A stretch of 64,000 bases of DNA from an uncultured cyanobacterium (GTDB lineage Bacteria > Cyanobacteriota > Cyanobacteriia > PCC-6307 > Cyanobiaceae), in assembly GCA_903917565.1 (NCBI GenBank), contig CAIXBB010000001.1, forward strand, positions 1-64,000. Reading direction: 5' to 3'. Position 1 is the stretch's first letter. Every line of letters begins with the position of its first letter. The notes beneath the pieces are model-generated. The model searched no databases and was not told the origin of the DNA. It saw nothing but the letters and a program-made list of their open reading frames with translations. The position numbers and the translations under genes are program-made. This document shows, piece after piece, positions 45,225 to 56,264 of this stretch.

Positions 45225-46697
45225 ATGGGCATCGCCGAATGGCGGGAGCAGCTTCGGCGGGGTGAGGTGTCGGCCCGGGAGCTCACGGATCGCCACCTGG
45301 CGCGCATCGCGGCTGTGGATCCCACGGTGCATGCCTTCCTGGAGGTCACCAGTGAGCGGGCGCGGGCCGATGCGGACCGCATCGACGCGGCCCGGGCGGC
45401 CGGTGAGCCCCTGCCCCCCCTGGCCGGCATCCCCCTGGCCATCAAGGACAATCTCTGCACCAAGGGGATCCGTACGACCTGCTCCAGCCGCATGCTGGAG
45501 AACTTCGTTCCCCCCTACGAATCCACGGTGACCGAACGGCTCTGGCGGGCCGGTGCCGTCCTGCTGGGCAAGACCAATCTCGACGAGTTCGCCATGGGCA
45601 GCTCCACCGAGACCTCCGCCTTCGGCGCCAGCCGCAACCCCTGGAACCCGGATCGGGTGCCGGGTGGCAGTTCCGGCGGCAGTGCGGCCGCCGTGGCCGC
45701 CGGTGAATGCATCGGTTCGCTCGGCTCCGACACCGGCGGCTCGATCCGCCAGCCCGCCAGCTTCTGCGGTGTGGTGGGTCTCAAGCCCACCTACGGCCGG
45801 GTGAGCCGCTGGGGTCTGGTGGCCTTCGCCTCCTCCCTCGACCAGGTGGGTCCGTTCAGCAGCAGCGTGGCCGATGCCGCCGAGCTGCTGCAGGTGATCG
45901 CCGGGGAGGATCCCCGCGATGCCACCTGTCTGCGGGCGCCGGTGCCCGATTACGGCGCGGACCTGGAGAAACCCATCACCGGGCTGCGGGTCGGGCTGAT
46001 CCGGGAATGCTTCGACCAGGAGGGTCTGGATCCCGAGGTGAAGGCCTCGGTGCTGGCGGCCGCCGCCCAGCTGGAGGCCCTGGGCTGTGAGCTGGTGGAC
46101 GTGAGCTGCCCCCGCTTCAACGACGGCATCGCCACGTACTACGTGATCGCCCCCTCGGAGGCCTCCGCCAACCTGGCCCGCTATGACGGCGTCAAGTACG
46201 GCTTCCGGGCGCCTGCCACCGAAGCCGGCAGCGACGGCCTGGCGGCGATGACCGCCCGCAGCCGGGCCAGCGGTTTCGGCGAGGAGGTGCAGCGGCGCAT
46301 CCTCATCGGCACCTATGCCCTCTCCGCCGGCTACGTGGACGCCTATTACCGCAAGGCCCAGCAGGTGCGCACCCTCATCCGCCGCGATTTCGACCGCGCC
46401 TTCGAGACCGTCGACGTGCTGCTGACCCCCACCTCTCCCACCACCGCCTTCCCCAGCGGCGCCCATGCGGGCGATCCCCTGGCCATGTACCTGGCCGACC
46501 TGCTCACCATCCCCGCCAACCTGGCCGGCCTGCCGGCCATCAGCGTGCCCTGCGGCTTCGACGCCCAGGGCCTGCCGATCGGACTGCAGCTGATCACAGG
46601 CGTCCTCGAGGAGTCGAAGCTGCTGCAGGTGGCCCACCAGTACGAACGGGCGGCGGCGGTGATGGAGCAGCGGCCGGTGGCGGCGCTGGTGGCCTGA
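45225..46697 (+). CDS. gatA: Aspartyl/glutamyl-tRNA amidotransferase subunit A
   Basis: The glutaminase subunit of GatCAB, which makes Gln-tRNA from misacylated Glu-tRNA. The 490 residues hold the amidase-signature triad: Lys in [12 protein letters not shown], and Ser in [13 protein letters not shown] and [13 protein letters not shown]. Length and C terminus are normal. The ATG at 45225 is used. No gatB or gatC is nearby, as is common in cyanobacteria where the subunits are scattered. A debris region follows. Confidence 0.97.
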
Positions 46698-46927
46698 GCA
46701 GCACCTTCGCCCTCCCGCATGGGCCCGGCCCCTGGCAGCAGGAGCTCTCGCTCAAGGCTGGAGATGACGTCGATCAGGGCTTCGGCGTTCTTCAGTGCGG
46801 GGGACGTTCCCGGATGGCGATACAGAGGAAGCGACGCCTTGGCCTCCTGCTGCTCGTGGTCGTCGCGGCCCATCCCCTTGAGAGTGTTGAAGCTGAACGA
46901 GTTGAGAAGGGTGCATAGGCAGGCCAT
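46698..46927 (-). pseudogene. Possible truncated minus-strand gene after gatA
   Basis: From an ATG at 46927 a protein-like sequence reads MACLCTLLNSF, then KASLPLYRHPGTSPALKNAE and LIDVISSLERELLLPGAG. Codon choice is plausible (mostly C or G in third positions). The frame does not stop but runs on through the antisense of gatA, as if its own 3' end had been lost. No family is recognised. It may equally be a short gene whose stop was mutated or just chance. Confidence 0.3.
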
Positions 46928-47191
46928 CTGAGCTGGAAATACAATGGGTTGAGGTGACTACAAGGGGAGTGGCAGGACGCTATGTCTATACCAGTCCAGG
47001 TGCAGTTTTCGATGACTTCCATGACATCCGCAAGGATGGCAGGATCTTCCAGTTTGTGGATGATCCCGATGCTTTCGCTGCCGATCGGGTGCACCTGGGC
47101 GGCGGCCCCGTTAATGCGGCTGCATCTCATCGGCCACGGATTCGCCGCACAGATCCGCCAACGTCGCCCTGATGGCTGAGTAGAGAGGAGT
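46928..47191. other. Unassigned stretch, possible gene remnants
   Basis: The region is A/T-richer than its neighbours. A minus-strand frame around 47136-46940 reads HPIGSESIGIIHKLEDP and ILADVMEVIENCTW, and a plus-strand frame from a GTG at 46954 reads GRYVYTSPGAVFDDFHDI. Both look partly protein-like, but only one strand can be real and neither is recognised. The 3' part supplies the Shine-Dalgarno GAGGAG of the next gene. Confidence 0.4.
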
Positions 47192-47701
47192 ATGGAAAAC
47201 CTCTCAAATCGGCAGAACAGGACCTGGCTGGCCTTGGTTTCTGCGGTTGTGTTGGTGGTGGCAGGTTTCGCCATCCTCAATAACCAGCATCAGCATCAGC
47301 ATCAGCATCAGCAGCGGCTTCAGGCCGAGGCCAGGGTTCAGGCTTCCCAGGATCAGGCCAACCGGGAGGTGATGGAGCGGGTGCAGGGCGAAATGGCCCT
47401 CAAGAACGACCTGGAATCTGCCTCCCAGCGTGAGGCCGCCCTCCAGTTGCAGCTCAAGGAAATGGACGCAGGGGCTAGCCGGCTCCTGGCGGCCGATGGC
47501 CAGCAGCAGGCCAGGCGCCAGCAGGCGGAAGGGGACCTTCAGGAGCTGCGGACCCAGCGAGCCAAGCTCGAGAAGCAGGTCGACTGTGAACGGATTCAGT
47601 TGACGGTGAACCAGCTGGGCGCCAAGGGCGACGCCGATCAGGCCCTGAAGCTGCAGAGCCTGTGGAAGGTGCCCTGCCCCAATCTCCAGGCGGCCAGTTA
47701 G
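47192..47701 (+). CDS. Membrane-anchored coiled-coil protein (169 aa)
   Basis: One N-terminal membrane helix (WLALVSAVVLVVAGFAIL, about residues 12-29), then a Gln-His repeat and a long coiled coil rich in Gln, Ala, Glu and Leu (about 45-135). A short end contains two Cys (DCERIQL and KVPCPNL) that could form a disulfide outside the membrane. I recognise no family. It stands 39 bases before the HlyD-like gene on the same strand, and its form (anchor plus coiled coil) suits an accessory of that exporter; this is inference. GAGGAG lies just before the ATG, unusually close. Confidence 0.75.
   Translation: MENLSNRQNRTWLALVSAVVLVVAGFAILNNQHQHQHQHQQRLQAEARVQASQDQANREVMERVQGEMALKNDLESASQREAALQLQLKEMDAGASRLLAADGQQQARRQQAEGDLQELRTQRAKLEKQVDCERIQLTVNQLGAKGDADQALKLQSLWKVPCPNLQAAS
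47285..47311 (+). repeat. CAGCAT hexanucleotide repeat
   Basis: Four CAGCAT units and a final CAG encode alternating Gln-His after the membrane helix of the coiled-coil protein. It is slippage-prone, but gain or loss of units stays in frame. Confidence 0.9.
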
Positions 47702-47740
47702 CCAGCCGACGCTGCTGCGATCGGTCAGCAGATCCCAAGC

Positions 47741-48808
47741 ATGACCCGGCGACGCTGGCTTCTCCTGATCCTGGCCATCGCGCTGGCCGGTGGGGGAGCG
47801 ATCGCCCTCTGGCAGACGTTGCGGCCAAAGCCGCTGGCCGCGGGCTTCGCCAGCAGCAACGGCCGCATCGAGGCCGTGGAGATCGATGTGGCCGCCAAGA
47901 CGGCGGGCCGGCTCATGCAGGTGCTGGGCGATGAGGGCGACTTCGTCGTGCACGGCCAGCTGCTGGCCCGGATGGACACCGACGATCTCAACGCCCAGCT
48001 GAGCGAAGCGCAGGCGGATCTGCGCAAGGCCACCAATGCGGTGGAAACGGCCCAGAGCACCGTGGCGCAGCGTCGCAGTGAACGCTCGGCCGCCGAAGCC
48101 GTGGTGGTGCAACGCATCGCCCAGCGCAAGGACGCCCGGCAGCACCGCCGCCGCCAGGAGCAACTGTTCGTCAAGGGGGCCGTTTCGGCCGAGGATCTCG
48201 ACGATGCCCGCGCGACGTTCTACGGCGCCGATGCGGTCGTCGCCGCGGCCAAGGCGACGGTGGCGGCCAGCCGCGCCGCCATCACCACCGCCGGCTCCCA
48301 GGTGATCGAAGCGGAGTCTTCGGTGGTGGCTGCCCAGGCCCGGATCGAGGGGATCAGGGCGGACATCGCCGACAGCCAGCTCAAGGCCCCCAGAGATGGG
48401 CGTGTGCAGTACCGCGTCGCCCAGCCCGGCGAAGTGTTGGCCGCGGGAGGCAAGGTGCTGAATCTGGTCGATCTCTCCGACGTTTCGATGACGTTCTTTC
48501 TGCCCACCGACCAGGCCGGGCGGGTGCGGCTGGGGGCCGATGTTCACCTGGTACTCGATGCCGCCCCCCAGCTGGTGATCCCGGCGCGGGTGACCTTCGT
48601 GGCCGATGTCGCCCAGTTCACCCCCAAAACCGTCGAAACGGCCGTGGAGCGTCAGAAGTTGATGTTCCGGATCAAGGCCCGCATTGATCCCGCCCTGCTC
48701 AAGCGCCATATCCGCCGCGTCAAAACGGGCTTGCCGGGCATGGCCTACGTCCGCCTCGACCCCCGGGCTGCCTGGCCGGCGGGGTTGGCGCTGAAGGTGC
48801 CGGATTGA
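47741..48808 (+). CDS. HlyD-family membrane fusion protein (YhiI-like)
   Basis: The periplasmic adaptor of a tripartite exporter. After a single N-terminal helix ([19 protein letters not shown]) comes a lipoyl-like half ([18 protein letters not shown]), a coiled-coil hairpin of about 120 residues, the second lipoyl half ([20 protein letters not shown]) and a beta-barrel ending near residue 355. The length and order match YhiI-type adaptors rather than RND ones. Its stop overlaps the ATPase start by one base (TGATG). Confidence 0.92.
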
Positions 48809-51543
48809 TGCCACCGGTCGTCCAGCTCTCAGGTGTGCGCCTGCGGTTCGGCACCAACTGCGCCCTGGCAGGTGTCAGCCTTGAGCTGGCCAGCGGCGGC
48901 CTCACTGGCCTGGTGGGCCCCGACGGGGTGGGCAAATCCAGCCTGCTCTCGCTGGTGGCCGGTACCCGTGCCGTGCAGCAGGGCCGGGTGCTCGTGCTGG
49001 GAGGCGACATGGCCGACCCTCGCCACCGCCGCGATGTCTGCCCCCGCATCGCCTACATGCCCCAGGGCCTGGGCAACAACCTCTCGCCCACGCTGACGGT
49101 GGTGGAGAACGTCGATTTCTTCGCGCGCCTGTTCGCTCAGGACCGCTCCGAGCGCCGCTGCCGCATCGGGGCCCTGCTGGAGCGCACCGGCCTCGGGGCC
49201 TTCGGCGCTCGCGCTGCCGGCCAGCTCTCCGGGGGGATGAAGCAGAAGCTCGGCCTCTGCTGCGCCCTGATCCACGACCCGGATCTGCTCATCCTCGATG
49301 AACCCACCACCGGCGTCGATCCCCTCTCGCGCCGCCAGTTCTGGGATCTGATCGCCAGCATCCGCGCCGACAACCCCGGCATGAGCGTGCTGGTGGCCAC
49401 CGCTTCGATGGACGAGGCCGCCAGCTTCGATGCGCTGGTGGCGATGGACGGCGGCCGCGTGCTCAGCACCGGCACCCCGTCGGAGCTGTTGCGGCGCACC
49501 GGCGCCGCCACGCCGGAAGACGCCTTCATCGCCCTGCTACCGGCGGCCAGGCGGCGGGAGCACCACCCGGTGACGATCCCGCCACGCCCTCCGGGGGATG
49601 GCCAGGTGGCGATCGAGGCCATCGATCTGTGCAAGCGCTTCGGCGCCTTCCTGGCGGTCGATCGTGTCAACGTGCGCATCGAGCGCGGCGAGATCTTCGG
49701 CTTCCTCGGCTCCAACGGTTGCGGCAAGTCGACCACCATGAAGGTGCTGGCGGGCCTGCTGCCGGCCAGCTCCGGCCAGGTGCGCCTCTTCCATCGCCCG
49801 CTGAACGCCGGAGACCTCACCACCCGGCGGCGGGTGGGCTACATGTCGCAGTCGTTTTCGCTGTACAGCGAGCTGACGGTGCGCCAGAACCTGGTGCTGC
49901 ACGCCCGCCTGTTCCAGGTGCCGGAGGCGGAGATCGCCGGGCGTGCCGCCACCCTGATGGGGCAGTTCGGCCTGCAGGATCTCGGCAACGCCCTGCCCGA
50001 TGCCCTGCCCCTGGGGGTGCGGCAGCGGCTGTCGCTGGCGGTGGCGCTGGTGCACCGGCCCGAGCTGCTGATCCTCGATGAGCCCACCTCGGGCGTCGAT
50101 CCGATCGCCCGTGACAGCTTCTGGCAGCAGCTGATCGATCTCTCGCGCCACGACCGGGTGACGATTTTCCTTTCCACCCACTTCATCAACGAGGCCCAGC
50201 GCTGCGACCGCCTCTCCCTGATGCATGCCGGCCGCGTGCTGGTCAGCGACACCCCTGCCGGCCTGATGGTGCGCCGCGGGACGACCACGCTCGAGGCGGC
50301 GTTCATCGGTTACCTGGAGGAGGCCAGCGGAGCCAACGAATCCGCCCACCCTGCTGGCCCGATCGCAGCTCCCGCCGCACCGGCAGCCAAGCAGCGATCC
50401 TCTGGGGTGGGGGAGGGGTTCAGCCTGCAACGGCTGGGGAGCTACAGCCGCCGCGAGGCGCTGGAGCTGAGTCGCGACCCGATCCGCATCACCACGGCCG
50501 TGCTGGGCAGCCTGTTTCTGATGGTGGTGATGGCCTTCGGCATGAGCATGGATGTGGAGAACCTTCCCTACGCGGTGCTCGACCGTGACGGCACAACCAC
50601 GAGCCGGGACTATGCCCTCAACCTGGCCGGCTCGCGCTACTTCATCGAACAGCCGCCGCTCGACGGTTACGGCGCCCTCGATCGGCGCATGCGCTCTGGG
50701 GAGCTGAGCGTGGCGATCGAACTGCCTCCAGGTTTGGGGCGTGATCTCGATCGCGGTGATCCGGCGGCCATCGGCGCCTGGATCGACGGCTCGATGCCGA
50801 TGCGGGCCGAGACGGTGCGGGCCTACGTGGAGGGCCTGCAGGCCCAGTGGCTGGCCGTCCGTGCGGGTCTCGCGCAGGGCGGACCCGGTCCGCCCCCGCC
50901 CGCCAGCATCGAAACGCGCTTCCGCTACAACCCCGACGTCCTCAGCCTGGTGGCGATGGTGCCGGCGATGATCCCGATCCTGCTGCTGCTGATTCCGGCG
51001 ATCCTGGCGGCGCTCTCGGTGGTGCGCGAAAAGGAACTGGGCACGATCGTCAACTTCTACGCCACCCCCGTCACCCGGCTGGAATTCCTGCTGGGCAAGC
51101 AGCTGCCCTACGTGGCCCTGGCGATGGTGAACTACTGGCTGCTCACCCTGCTGGCGGTGACCCTGTTCAGGGTGCCCCTCACCGGCAGCGTCGCCGCCCA
51201 GGCCACCGGCGCCCTCCTCTACGTGATCTGTGCCACGTCCCTGGGGCTGCTGATCTCGACCCTGGTGCGCACCCAGATCGCTGCGCTGTTCGGCACCGCC
51301 GTGCTGACGATCCTGCCGGCCACCTCCTTCTGCGGTCTGCTCGATCCGGTGTCCTCCCTGCAGGGGGCAGGAGCGGTGATCGGGGCGATCTACCCCACAG
51401 CCCACTACCTCACCATCTCCACCGGCACCTTCTCCAAGGAACTGGGCTTCGGGGATCTGCTCGGCCCCTTCGCTGCCCTGCTGCTGGCGGTGCCGGTGCT
51501 GTTGGGCCTGTCGGTGCTGTTCCTCAGGAAGCAGGAGACCTGA
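48808..51543 (+). CDS. Fused ABC transporter: two ATPases plus ABC-2 permease (RbbA-like)
   Basis: A 911-residue fusion. ATPase 1 (about residues 5-235) has Walker [10 protein letters not shown], signature LSGGMKQKL and Walker [13 protein letters not shown]. ATPase 2 (about 270-500) has Walker [10 protein letters not shown], but its signature is LPLGVRQRL instead of LSGGQ, with Walker [13 protein letters not shown]. From about 555 an ABC-2 permease follows: one helix, a large outer loop, then a helix cluster (about 705-905). This matches E. coli RbbA/YhiH. The substrate is unknown. An ATG at 48808 is used. Confidence 0.93.
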
Positions 51544-51546
51544 GCC

Positions 51547-52668
51547 ATGCGCGCCGCCAATGTGCTCCATCTGGGCCTCAAGGAGCTGTGGAGCCTGGCC
51601 CGCGATCCGATCATGTTGCTGCTGATCGTCTTCGTGTTCACGGTGTCGGTCTACTCCGGTGCCACGGTGCTGCCCGAAACGCTGCACACGGCTCCGATCG
51701 CGATCGTCGATGAAGACCGCTCGCCGCTCTCGCAGCGGATCATCGCCGCCTTCGAGCCGCCCTACTTCCTGCCGCCGAAGCTGATCGCGCAGGCCCGGAT
51801 GGATGGGCGCATGGATGCGGGGCTCGACACCTTCGCGGTGGTGATTCCCTCCGCCTTCCAGCGCGATGTGCTGGCGGGCCGATCTCCGGCCGTGCAGCTC
51901 AATGTCGATGCCACCCGTGTCAGCCAGGCTCTCACCGGCAGTGGCTATGTGCAGGCGATCATCACCGCTGAGGTGCAGACCTTCGTGCAGCACGACCAGC
52001 CCAGCCCCCTGCCGCCGGTGGAGCTGGTGGTGCGGATGCGCTTCAACCCCGAGCTCACCAAAACCTGGTTCGGTGCCGTGAACAAGGTGATCGACAACAT
52101 CACCCTGCTCTCGATCGTGCTCACCGGCGCCGCCCTGATCCGGGAGCGCGAACGGGGCACGATCGAGCACCTGCTGGTGATGCCGGTGACGCCGTTCGAG
52201 ATCATGGCCAGCAAGGTGTGGTCGATGGGGCTGGTGGTGCTTGTCGCCGGACTGCTCTCCCTGGTGCTGGTGGTGCGGGGCGTGCTGGCGGTGCCCCTGG
52301 CGGGTTCGCTGCCGCTGTTCGCGGCCGGCGCGGCGCTCTACCTGTTCGCCGCCACTTCCCTGGGCATCTTTTTGGGCACCTTCGCGCGGTCGATGGCCCA
52401 GTTCGGCCTGCTGCTGATGATGGTGCTGCTGCCGCTGCAGATGCTCTCCGGCGGTGTCACCCCGCGTGAAAGCATGCCCGCGCTGGTGAGCACCGTGATG
52501 CTGGCGGCTCCGAACACCCATTTCGTGATGCTGGCCCAGGGCATCCTCTTCCGCGGCGCCAACCTCGCGGTGGTCTGGCCCCAGTTCCTGGCCCTGGCGC
52601 TGATCGGCACGGTGTTCTTCGGTGTGGCCCACGCCCGCTTCCGCAGCGCCATCACGGCGATGGCCTGA
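51547..52668 (+). CDS. ABC-2 permease (YhhJ-like)
   Basis: A 373-residue integral membrane subunit. One N-terminal helix ([16 protein letters not shown]), an outer domain of about 140 residues, then five helices, with the ABC-2 signature [20 protein letters not shown] on the cytoplasmic side. It starts three bases after the fused ATPase gene and would pair with its permease half. Together with the HlyD-like adaptor it completes a YhiI-RbbA-YhhJ type exporter. A palindrome follows its stop directly. Confidence 0.93.
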
Positions 52669-52686
52669 ACCACCAGATCTGGTGGT
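52669..52686. terminator. Perfect 18-bp palindrome directly after the exporter operon
   Basis: The sequence is self-complementary with GATC at its centre: ACCACCA pairs with TGGTGGT. It begins at the first base after the permease stop and ends 32 bases before the dnaE start. No T-run follows. Its form is like the palindrome at the thrB stop. Confidence 0.55.
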
Positions 52687-52718
52687 GCCCGGTAAGCTTG
52701 CCCCATCCTGTGGTGGCC

Positions 52719-55700
52719 ATGCCCTCCGACGCCGTGGCCTTCGTCCCCCTCCACAACCACAGCGACTACAGCCTCCTGGACGGGGCCTCCCAGCTGCCGG
52801 CCATGGTGGAGCGAGCCGTGGAGCTGGGCATGCCGGCTCTGGCCCTCACCGACCACGGTGTCATGTACGGCGCCATCGAACTGCTGAAGCTCTGCACCAA
52901 GGCGGGCATCAAGCCGATCATCGGCAACGAGATGTACGTGATCAACGGCTCGATCGAGGATCCGCAGCCGAAGAAGGAGCGCCGCTACCACCTGGTGGTG
53001 CTGGCCCGCAACGCCGTCGGCTACCGCAATCTGGTCAAGCTCACCAGCATCAGCCACCTGCGCGGCATGCGTGGCCGGGGCATTTTCGCCCGGGCCTGCA
53101 TCGACAAGCAGCTGCTGCGGCAGTACAGCGAGGGCCTGATGGTGGCCACCGCCTGCCTGGGCGGCGAAATCCCCCAGGCGATCCTGCGGGGGCGTCCCGA
53201 CGTGGCCCGCGAGGTGGCCGCCTGGTACCGGGAGGTGTTCTCCGACGACTTCTATCTGGAGATCCAGGATCACGGCGGCCTTGAGGACCGTCTCGTCAAC
53301 GTGGAGATGGCCCGGATCAGCGCTGAGCTGGCCATCCCCCTGATCGCCACCAACGACGCCCACTACCTCACCAGCCACGACGTGGAGGCCCACGACGCCC
53401 TGCTGTGCGTGCTCACCGGCAAGCTGATCAGCGACGAGAAGCGCCTGCGCTACACGGGCACCGAGTACATCAAGAGCGAGGCGGAGATGGCGCAGCTCTT
53501 CGCCGACCATCTCGAGCCGGAGGTGATCGCCGCCGCCATCGCCACCACCGCCCGGGTGGCCGAGAAGGTGGAGGACTACGACATCCTGGGGCGCCAACAG
53601 ATGCCCCGCTTCCCGATCCCCGAGGGCCACACCCCGGTGAGCTATCTCAGTGAGGTGAGCCACCAGGGACTCCGCTGTCGCCTGTCGCTGGCGGAGGACG
53701 CTCCGATCGATCCCGGCTATGGCGAGCGGCTGGCCTTCGAGCTGCAGGTGATGGAGCAGATGGGCTTCCCCACCTACTTCCTGGTGGTCTGGGACTACAT
53801 CCGCTTCGCCCGGGAGCAGGGCATCCCGGTGGGCCCGGGGCGTGGGTCGGCCGCCGGTTCGCTGGTGGCCTACTCCCTGGGCATCACCAACATCGATCCG
53901 GTGGAGCACGGCCTGCTGTTCGAGCGCTTCCTCAACCCGGAACGCCAATCGATGCCTGACATCGACACCGACTTCTGCATCGAGCGCCGTGGTGAGGTGA
54001 TCGACTACGTCACCCGCCGCTACGGCGAGGACAAGGTGGCCCAGATCATCACCTTCAACCGCATGACCTCCAAGGCGGTGCTCAAGGACGTGGCTCGCGT
54101 GCTCGACATCCCCTACGGCGAGGCCGACCGCCTGGCCAAACTGATCCCCGTGGCCCGTGGCAAGCCGGCCAAGCTCGCCGAGATGGTCGGCCCCGAGTCC
54201 CCCGTCCCGGAGTTCCGCGAGAAGTACGAGAACGATCCCAAGGTGCGCCACTGGATCGACCTGGCCCGCCGCATCGAAGGCACCAACAAGACCTTCGGCG
54301 TCCATGCCGCCGGGGTGGTGATCGCCGCCGAACCCCTCGACGAACTGGTGCCCCTGCAGCGCAACAACGACGGCCAGGTGATCACCCAGTACTTCATGGA
54401 AGATGTGGAGGCGATGGGCCTGCTGAAGATGGACTTCCTGGGCCTCAAGAACCTCACCATGATCGAGAAGACGCTGGATCTGGTCGAGCAGAGTGTCGGC
54501 CAGAGGATCGATCCGGATGCCCTGCCCGCCAACGATCCCCAGACCTACGCCCTGCTGGCCCGGGGCGATCTGGAGGGCATCTTTCAGCTCGAATCCAGCG
54601 GCATGCGCCAGATCGTCCGCGATCTCAAACCCTCTTCGCTGGAAGACATCTCCTCGATCCTGGCCCTCTACCGGCCGGGCCCGCTGGACGCCGGCCTGAT
54701 CCCCAAGTTCATCAACCGCAAGCACGGTCGCGAGGTCATCGATGTGGCCCACGCCAAGCTGGAGCCGATCCTCAAGGAGACCTACGGGATCATGGTCTAC
54801 CAGGAGCAGATCATGCGGATCGCCCAGGATCTGGCGGGCTATTCCCTCGGTGAAGCCGATCTTCTACGGCGCGCCATGGGCAAGAAGAAGGTGTCGGAGA
54901 TGCAGAAGCATCGCCAACAGTTCGTGGGAGGGGCCAGCGAGCGTGGCGTGGAAGCCTCCATCGCCGAGGCGCTTTTCGATCAGATGGTGCTGTTCGCCGA
55001 GTACTGCTTCAACAAGAGCCATTCCACGGCCTACGGCGCCGTCACCTACCAGACCGCCTACCTCAAGGCCCACCATCCGGTGGCCTACATGGCGGCCCTG
55101 CTCACGGTGAATGCCGGCACCTCTGACAAGGTGCAGCGCTATATCGCCAACTGCCAGGCGATGGCCATTGAGGTGATGCCACCGGATGTGAATGCCTCCG
55201 GCATCGACTTCACGCCCGTGGGCAAGAAGATCCTCTTCGGTCTTTCGGCCATCCGGAACCTCGGCGACGGCGCCATCCGCCAGTTGATCGAGGCCCGCTC
55301 CAGCGGAGGCCCCTTCCTGCATCTCGCCGATCTCTGCGACCGGATCTCCGGCCAGCAGCTCAACCGCCGGGCGATCGAGTCCCTGATCCACTGCGGTGCC
55401 CTCGATGGCCTCGAGCCGAAGGCCAACCGGGCCCAGTTGATGGCCGATCTCGATCTCGTGCTCGATTGGGCCAGTTCCCGCGCCCGCGACCGGGCCAGTG
55501 GCCAGGGCAACCTGTTCGACCTGTTCGGCGGCGGTTCCACTGGGCCTGCCGGGGGCTCCGCTCCTGTGGAGGCTCCCGCGCCACCGCGGGCCGCTGCGGT
55601 GGCCGACTACCCCCCCACCGAGAAACTGAAGCTGGAGAAGGAGCTGCTCGGCTTCTACATCTCCGACCACCCCCTGCGCCAGCTGGCCTCCCAGGTGCGG

Positions 55701-56264
55701 CTGCTCACCCCGATCGGCCTGGCCAATCTCGAGGAGATGGCCGACAAGGCCAAGGTGAGCGTGGTGGTGATGGTGAGCGAGATCCGCCAGGTGACCACCC
55801 GCAAGGGGGACCGCATGGCCGTGCTGCAGCTGGAGGACCTCACCGGCGCCTGCGAAGCGGTGGTGTTCCCCAAGAGCTACGCCCGCCTGGCCGACCACCT
55901 GATGGTGGATGCCCGCCTGTTGCTCTGGGCCGGTGTCGACCGCCGCGACGATCGGGTGCAACTTCTTGTTGACGACTGCCGCAGCATCGAGGATCTGCAG
56001 CTGGTGATGGTGGAGCTGGCGCCCGAGCAGGCCGGCGACATCGCTGTTCAGCACCGTCTGCGCGAATGCCTGACCCGTCACCGTCCTGGCCAGGAGGAGG
56101 CCGGTGTGCGGGTGCCGGTGGTGGCCCTGGTGAAGCAGGAGAACGAAACCCGTTTCGTGCGCCTGGGGGGCCAGTTCTGCGTTGCCGACGCTCCGGCGGC
56201 CGTGCAGACCCTGGCCTCGGCTGATTTCAGGGCCTGGTTGCGTTCACCCCTGGGGGCTGTCTGA
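52719..56264 (+). CDS. dnaE: DNA polymerase III alpha subunit, unsplit and intein-free
   Basis: The replicative polymerase, 1181 residues. The N-terminal PHP domain opens with [15 protein letters not shown]. The catalytic aspartates are in [13 protein letters not shown] (about residues 412-424). The helix-hairpin-helix, an OB fold ([19 protein letters not shown], from about 1010) and the tail complete the protein. The point where many cyanobacteria carry the split DnaE intein, [11 protein letters not shown], is intact at residues 762/763 (55004/55005). The ATG at 52719 gives the normal N terminus. The last 21 bases overlap the convergent PAM68 gene. Confidence 0.98.

Follow-up and report, generated by a model that had tools for sequence, protein, structure and literature searches.

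The window, the whole stretch of 64,000 nucleotides that was analysed, contains four open forward reading frames between the core genes gatA and dnaE. The features of the locus are as follows:

45225-46697, + strand: gatA, the left core-gene flank (open reading frame)
46698-47190, + strand: debris, remnants of two resident genes (interval alignment, translations, Pfam in relatives)
47192-47701, + strand: coiled-coil ORF of 169 aa with a membrane-like N terminus (judged by eye)
about 47706-52669, + strand: exporter operon, probably an inserted unit (blastn junctions, printed sequence of empty sites, homology to SynAce01)
47741-48808, + strand: YhiI-like HlyD-family adaptor, 355 aa (PF16576, 2.6e-12; PF13437, 2.9e-11)
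48808-51543, + strand: RbbA, 911 aa (NF033858, motif table, AlphaFold2 model)
51547-52668, + strand: YhhJ-like second ABC-2 membrane protein, 373 aa (PF12698, 118.7 bits vs 31.6)
52670-52687, no strand: 18-bp perfect palindrome upstream of dnaE (exact sequence match)
52698-56264, + strand: dnaE, the right core-gene flank (ORF bounds, start codon unsettled)

The adaptor scores 47.0 bits with HlyD_D23 (cut-off 30), and PF16576 and PF13437 are both over their cut-offs. The RbbA reading frame encodes 912 aa from a TTG at 48805 or 911 aa from an ATG at 48808. Two ABC_tran (PF00005) stretches and an ABC2_membrane_3 domain (PF12698; 114.5 bits vs 31.6), together with the AlphaFold2 model, describe RbbA as a fusion of two ATPase domains with one ABC-2 membrane domain. 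The NCBI equivalog NF033858 matches residues 5-911 with 1434.8 bits against a cut-off of 1050. In the window the HlyD-family adaptor is encoded directly 5' and the ABC-2 permease directly 3' of rbbA. All three exporter genes look maintained, since their dN/dS ratios relative to the related genome G011 are about 0.12-0.22. The presence of an exporter of the YhiI/RbbA/YhhJ type, as proposed in the earlier note on this DNA, is borne out by Pfam, by NF033858 and by the gene order and lengths of the Escherichia coli operon. The interval assigned there to the exporter island, 46698-52686, does enclose these genes, but the inserted unit is narrower and the part at 46698-47701 is a resident cassette.

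The distance between gatA and dnaE was measured where both genes are located on one contig, which was the case in 40 of the 42 genomes of the genus (G025, with two contigs, and G036, with no gatA match, were left out) and in 24 of the 31 genomes of other genera of the family (seven left out). Within the genus it ranges from 67 to 11339 bp, being 350 bp or less in 23 genomes, 451 bp in one and at least 900 bp in 16. The range is 55-245 bp in all 24 genomes of the other genera. These short gaps inside and outside the genus suggest that adjacency of gatA and dnaE is the old state, consistent with their earlier description as usual close neighbours.

An intact exporter occupies this gap only in the window's genome and in G011, while G013 and G019 carry it elsewhere. 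Seven relatives (G004, G008, G012, G022, G038, G040, and G041) have an empty site, recognised from blastn junctions and counted by eye, like the scars described below, from the printed sequence. In these sites exporter letters are absent: the palindrome core and dnaE begin only a few bases after the coiled-coil gene, or what remains of it, comes to an end. The left junction is similar in the window, G011 and G003 (a short match, judged by eye), and the right exporter junction is common to the window, G011 and G017. Scars of the exporter are present in two genomes. G003 retains two yhhJ fragments, 81% identical over 159 bp and 85% over 93 bp, and in G017 the final 28 bases of yhhJ survive, 25 of them matching, followed by the right junction as in the window. 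A single insertion with two or more later losses is the simplest reading. The comparison of the gatA-dnaE interval in relatives thus agrees with the later insertion that had been suspected; most relatives do not carry this exporter here with trees that agree, which would have spoken for the opposite.

The palindrome ACCACCAGATCTGGTGGT is exact at 52670-52687. Its 14-base core CACCANATNTGGTG, at 52671-52684, occurs once in the window against 0.01 expected, and at one further place in the window's genome. Of the 25 genus genomes examined, 17 have the core, with empty sites among them, and so does one of 16 genomes of other genera. Among 20 further gatA-dnaE gaps (16 of other genera and four of the genus) the 14-base pattern occurs in one (G070, of another genus), and a 10-base core in G064 and G023. 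The full 18 bases are found only in the window, G011 and G017, the genomes that keep the exporter's right-hand junction. This junction lengthens an older, resident palindrome element. The palindrome was also considered as a mark of insertion; this was ruled out because the 14-base core is also present in the empty sites. Of the perfect palindrome noticed earlier, therefore, the exactness and the tie of the full 18 bases to the right junction stand, but not its role as an insertion mark. No terminator-like site was called at the palindrome. CACCANATNTGGTG may serve in the control of dnaE or gatA.

A homologue of the coiled-coil gene was found in 13 of 119 genomes, the window's included, all of them in this genus. 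Twelve of the 13 have it in the gap, with gatA and dnaE on the same contig; the contig of G025 carries it after gatA and lacks dnaE. The copies of G004, G008, and G038 are partial. Between the window and G011 it has a dN of 0.080 and a dS of 0.413, and a Pfam scan of the 169-aa reading frame gave nothing over the cut-offs. The protein had been suggested as a fourth component of the pump. Only 39 bp separate its stop codon from the start of the HlyD gene, and co-transcription is possible in the window's genome. However, the gene accompanies an intact exporter at the site only in the window and G011 and is present without one in the 11 other genomes. The exporter loci of SynAce01, G013, G070, and G019 and 22 loci of other phyla (L115-L136), in stretches of about 9-19 kb, contain no copy of it, so that it was not seen to travel with the exporter; nor does it have any match genome-wide in G013, G070, and G019. 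Its presence in genomes without the exporter and its absence from exporter loci elsewhere indicate that the coiled-coil gene is a resident and no part of the exporter, and a function as fourth pump component is hardly credible.

The debris upstream of it is real. Comparison of 13 gatA-to-coiled-coil intervals aligned the debris with two genes of this gap that several relatives keep intact, and it represents two decayed resident genes. The first is SnoaL-like, with 132-143 aa in relatives and PF13474 (SnoaL_3) matches of 4e-13, 8e-14, and 8e-18 in three of them. The second is small, about 145 aa, looks exported by eye and has no Pfam match. The GC content falls to 0.582 at 46750-47249, across the debris.

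The exporter is common in other bacterial groups and rare in cyanobacteria. RbbA was over the cut-off in four of the 42 genus genomes and in three of 386 genomes evenly sampled from the phylum, the window's genome being included in both counts, as suits a patchy family. At an E-value of 1e-150, 22 of the 386 genomes match, 19 of them below the cut-off. The three genes are present in the same order at the 22 loci of other phyla and at the other exporter loci examined; the adaptor of L123 is cut by a contig end, some genes are in two pieces (L121 and L130), and L137-L139 were left out. The yhhJ of a Herbaspirillum locus (L121, about 8087) and the rbbA of a Pseudolabrys locus (L130, about 6914) each match in two frames, and may for this reason carry frameshifts or sequencing errors. 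In G019, a stretch of 1.76 kb with a 513-aa reading frame, perhaps an insertion element, interrupts rbbA (L034, 8952-13433) after about residue 770.

The Antarctic strain SynAce01 carries the unit at another place, on the other side of dnaE, 5.7 kb past this gene and beyond a ruvA homologue (2092000-2120000; L113, L143, and L144). It is 83.7% identical to the window over 47717-52668, with 79.2% for gatA and 81.5% for dnaE. The dS between the window and SynAce01 is 0.475-0.588 for the exporter genes and 0.633-0.645 for the core genes, so that the exporter lies only about 7-26% below the core. Between G011 and SynAce01 it is 0.503 for RbbA, 0.466 for YhhJ, 0.694 for the adaptor and 0.593-0.627 for the core genes. 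The exporter of the window and that of G011 differ by a dS of 0.229-0.369, with 0.193 for gatA and 0.273 for dnaE; being about as diverged as these genes or more, it was not swapped recently between the two genomes. Taken together, the divergence rates lean towards a transfer between lineages some time ago and are not decisive.

Phylogenetic analysis of the fused ATPase, proposed in the earlier note as a check, was carried out on 29 sequences, sampled by peptide match (27 loci), and rooted at the midpoint. For RbbA, the requirement of 600 aligned residues in the best piece was passed by 28 of 28 loci plus the window; 27 of 28 loci passed for the YhhJ tree and 26 of 28 for the HlyD tree, with L137-L139 left out. 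The six cyanobacterial RbbA copies form one clade (96/93), which is adjoined by three planctomycete copies (86/84) and placed among mostly proteobacterial ones. Within the clade there are two deep lineages, one consisting of the window, G011, and SynAce01 and the other of G013, G070, and G019. The YhhJ tree joins these lineages with only 63% and the HlyD tree does not join them.

These data were weighed against an ancestral exporter: the ancestor of the clade would have had it between gatA and dnaE, many losses would have followed, and the empty sites would be precise deletions. The scars of G003 and G017, which the gatA and dnaE trees place in separate subclades, are consistent with repeated loss, as is the dS of the window and G011 exporters, which is not below that of gatA. 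Precise deletion would, however, have had to leave nearly the same join and no exporter letters in seven empty sites spread over several subclades, including the early-branching G038. The close spacing of the two genes in every measurable genome of the other genera and the different location of the unit in SynAce01 also argue against an ancestral position, and we consider this alternative unlikely. Far more probable is the horizontal gain of an intact pump of the YhiI-RbbA-YhhJ type, inserted into a variable slot between gatA and dnaE. A single insertion beside the palindrome upstream of dnaE would have been followed by spread and loss among strains through homologous recombination in the flanking core genes. 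All in all, the exporter is real, maintained, of a known family and most likely horizontally acquired.

The same slot contains other cargo in related genomes. G003 carries an MCRA-family gene (L055, 1200-2969), which we take to be oleate-hydratase-like. Glycosyltransferase-like and TPR genes are present in G024 (L060, 1808-11803) and in G025, where the placement rests on a contig with gatA and the coiled-coil gene. G024 also carries a 1678-aa FG-GAP/cadherin/RTX gene. Further contents are an RTX gene (G002), a multicopper oxidase (G010) and a TPR gene (SynAce01). Thus, across the 40 genus genomes, the same two core genes flank differing families within one clade.

Searches for a mobile element at the locus gave negative results: none of the nine reading frames scanned matches an integrase or transposase, no tRNA is present in 40000-64000, Rfam elements gave no hit with the window's exporter unit, and no terminal repeats of at least 16 bases border this unit, shorter ones not being excluded. 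A possible sign of recombination in the flanks comes from G011, for which the gatA and dnaE trees disagree. The dnaE data reject the grouping of G011 with G024, its gatA partner (AU test, p = 0.011), and the gatA data reject G011 with G017, G008, G022, and G006, its dnaE group (p = 0.0017). The dnaE data do not reject a grouping of the window with G011 (p = 0.156), nor do the gatA data reject the window with G025 and G040 (p = 0.302). Five AU tests were run in all, on groups named after the trees had been seen. The draft assembly of G011 is 85% complete and broken into about 210 contigs, and its discordance could be an assembly chimera. The gatA-dnaE pattern fits the hotspots that, in the available part of a 2017 study, are renewed by recombination in flanking core genes (PMC5635113).

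The surroundings of the exporter and extrachromosomal records were also searched. Among 94 neighbouring reading frames at 25 loci, picked by length so that some may be false, no conserved partner gene emerged: no Pfam family occurs at more than two loci (E-value 1e-5), and one frame matches an outer-membrane channel family. Seven phage records match; among the matches listed, two are Salmonella contigs of half a megabase, two are short records that lack annotation, and one is an Acinetobacter phage record of 144 kb in which YbhF/YbhS-like genes occur. Of 72,556 plasmid records, 149 match at an E-value of 1e-100. Since the best plasmid identity is 66.7%, plasmids carry the family elsewhere and reveal no source for the window copy.

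The motifs of RbbA were counted by eye from a table of 29 sequences, E. coli included. Both Walker A and Walker B motifs are kept in all 29. Domain 1 contains the LSGGM signature and lacks the switch histidine, while domain 2 contains the switch histidine and has LPLG-like letters (also MPLG, LSLG, and LPVG) in place of LSGG, again in 29 of 29 sequences. The criterion of asymmetry applied here is that of this analysis and not an official one. In the standard ABC sandwich, an ATP site pairs the Walker motifs of one domain with the signature of the other, and asymmetric exporters with one complete and one degenerate ATP site are known. By this arrangement the domain motifs give RbbA one complete and one degenerate ATP site, which suggests an asymmetric export motor. 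The working site would combine the Walker motifs and switch histidine of domain 2 with the LSGGM signature of domain 1, and the second site of the pair would be degenerate. RbbA and YhhJ would pair their membrane domains, and the HlyD adaptor may connect the pump to a TolC-family channel of the cell; four reading frames of the window's genome have OEP (TolC-family) matches. The cargo could be a hydrophobic compound or a lipid, a guess from the ABC-2 family. The literature search gave only a weak hint of an export substrate: in the part of the report available, an association is given between variants of rbbA and the resistance of E. coli to microcin C (PMC10926693). A term search of part of the SynAce01 genome paper (PMC6337551) finds neither RbbA nor HlyD.

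The AlphaFold2 model of RbbA has a mean pLDDT of 85.0 and comprises two ATPase folds and a membrane part made of helices, with long helices at the C terminus. The best fit to the ATPase pair in the structure search is that of the Dpp/Opp tandem ATPases (target TM-score 0.66-0.77). Ordered by E-value, ABCH comes first, and Cdr1, Pdr5 (rank 18), ABCA7 (19), and ABCG5/8 (30) are also listed. The ABC-F protein EttA, at rank 14, precedes Pdr5 and ABCA7, and other ABC-F proteins stand at ranks 17, 20, and 24. Whole-length TM-scores are below 0.5. The search shows the ATPase fold and gives no decision between a pump and a ribosome factor.

This predicted resemblance to ABC-F proteins is one reason to consider RbbA as a ribosome-associated translation factor with incidental transporter-like genes beside it. 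Another is the NCBI family name, "ribosome-associated ATPase/putative transporter RbbA," and a third is a 2025 study, available in part, in which E. coli RbbA without its membrane domain was used for in vitro translation and altered this process with unusual amino acids (PMC12096078). The gene, however, keeps its ABC-2 membrane domain and, at exporter loci, is flanked by an adaptor gene and another membrane gene, and a factor of translation would be present in only four of 42 genomes of the genus. According to part of a 2019 report, RbbA-mCherry was distributed through the membrane in E. coli (PMC6788730), and the 2011 paper linking RbbA to a membrane protein and to protein synthesis was retracted in 2025 (PMC12169533). 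The membrane domain and the operon, rather than the structure search, point to a pump, and a ribosome factor with incidental neighbours is quite improbable.

A broader reading has two parts: the gap may serve as a cargo slot through which plain homologous recombination passes a bare three-gene pump from strain to strain, and RbbA proteins, whether of E. coli, cyanobacteria or planctomycetes, may be asymmetric export motors with a conserved degenerate ATP site, the family's name as a ribosome factor being misleading. Both together are quite possible and are proposed tentatively. If the insertion is accepted, the locus documents gene gain without a recognised mobile element, with empty, occupied, scarred and rival-cargo sites in a single genus, and a pump family usually named as a ribosome factor would travel as an exporter of three genes whose asymmetric motor is conserved.

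The slot resembles the recombination hotspots described in the available part of the 2017 study (PMC5635113) in its fixed core-gene flanks, its changing contents and the lack of a recognised mobile element. Discordant flank trees, a property of those hotspots, are found here in one strain, the fragmented draft G011. The hotspots were defined quantitatively, whereas the single locus studied here is likened to them by pattern.

A second exporter of related composition is encoded in the same genome, on contig C7 at about 122178-127630 (locus L035, 3179-8631). Like the operon of the window, it comprises an HlyD adaptor, two fused ATPase domains and two ABC-2 membrane proteins. In contrast to RbbA, the dual ATPase (669 aa) and both membrane domains are encoded by separate genes, and this ATPase scores 503 bits on the RbbA model, against the cut-off of 1050. 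We take this HlyD/dual ATPase/two-permease operon to be YbhGFSR-like.

The yhiI-rbbA-yhhJ operon of E. coli MG1655 differs from that of the window in host phylum and chromosomal position, and its RbbA stands apart from the window protein in the tree. The two operons nevertheless have the same gene order, likewise with overlapping genes, and encode proteins of 355, 911, and 374 aa in E. coli and of 355, 911, and 373 aa in the window. The ATPase motifs of RbbA, the degenerate ones included, are common to both.
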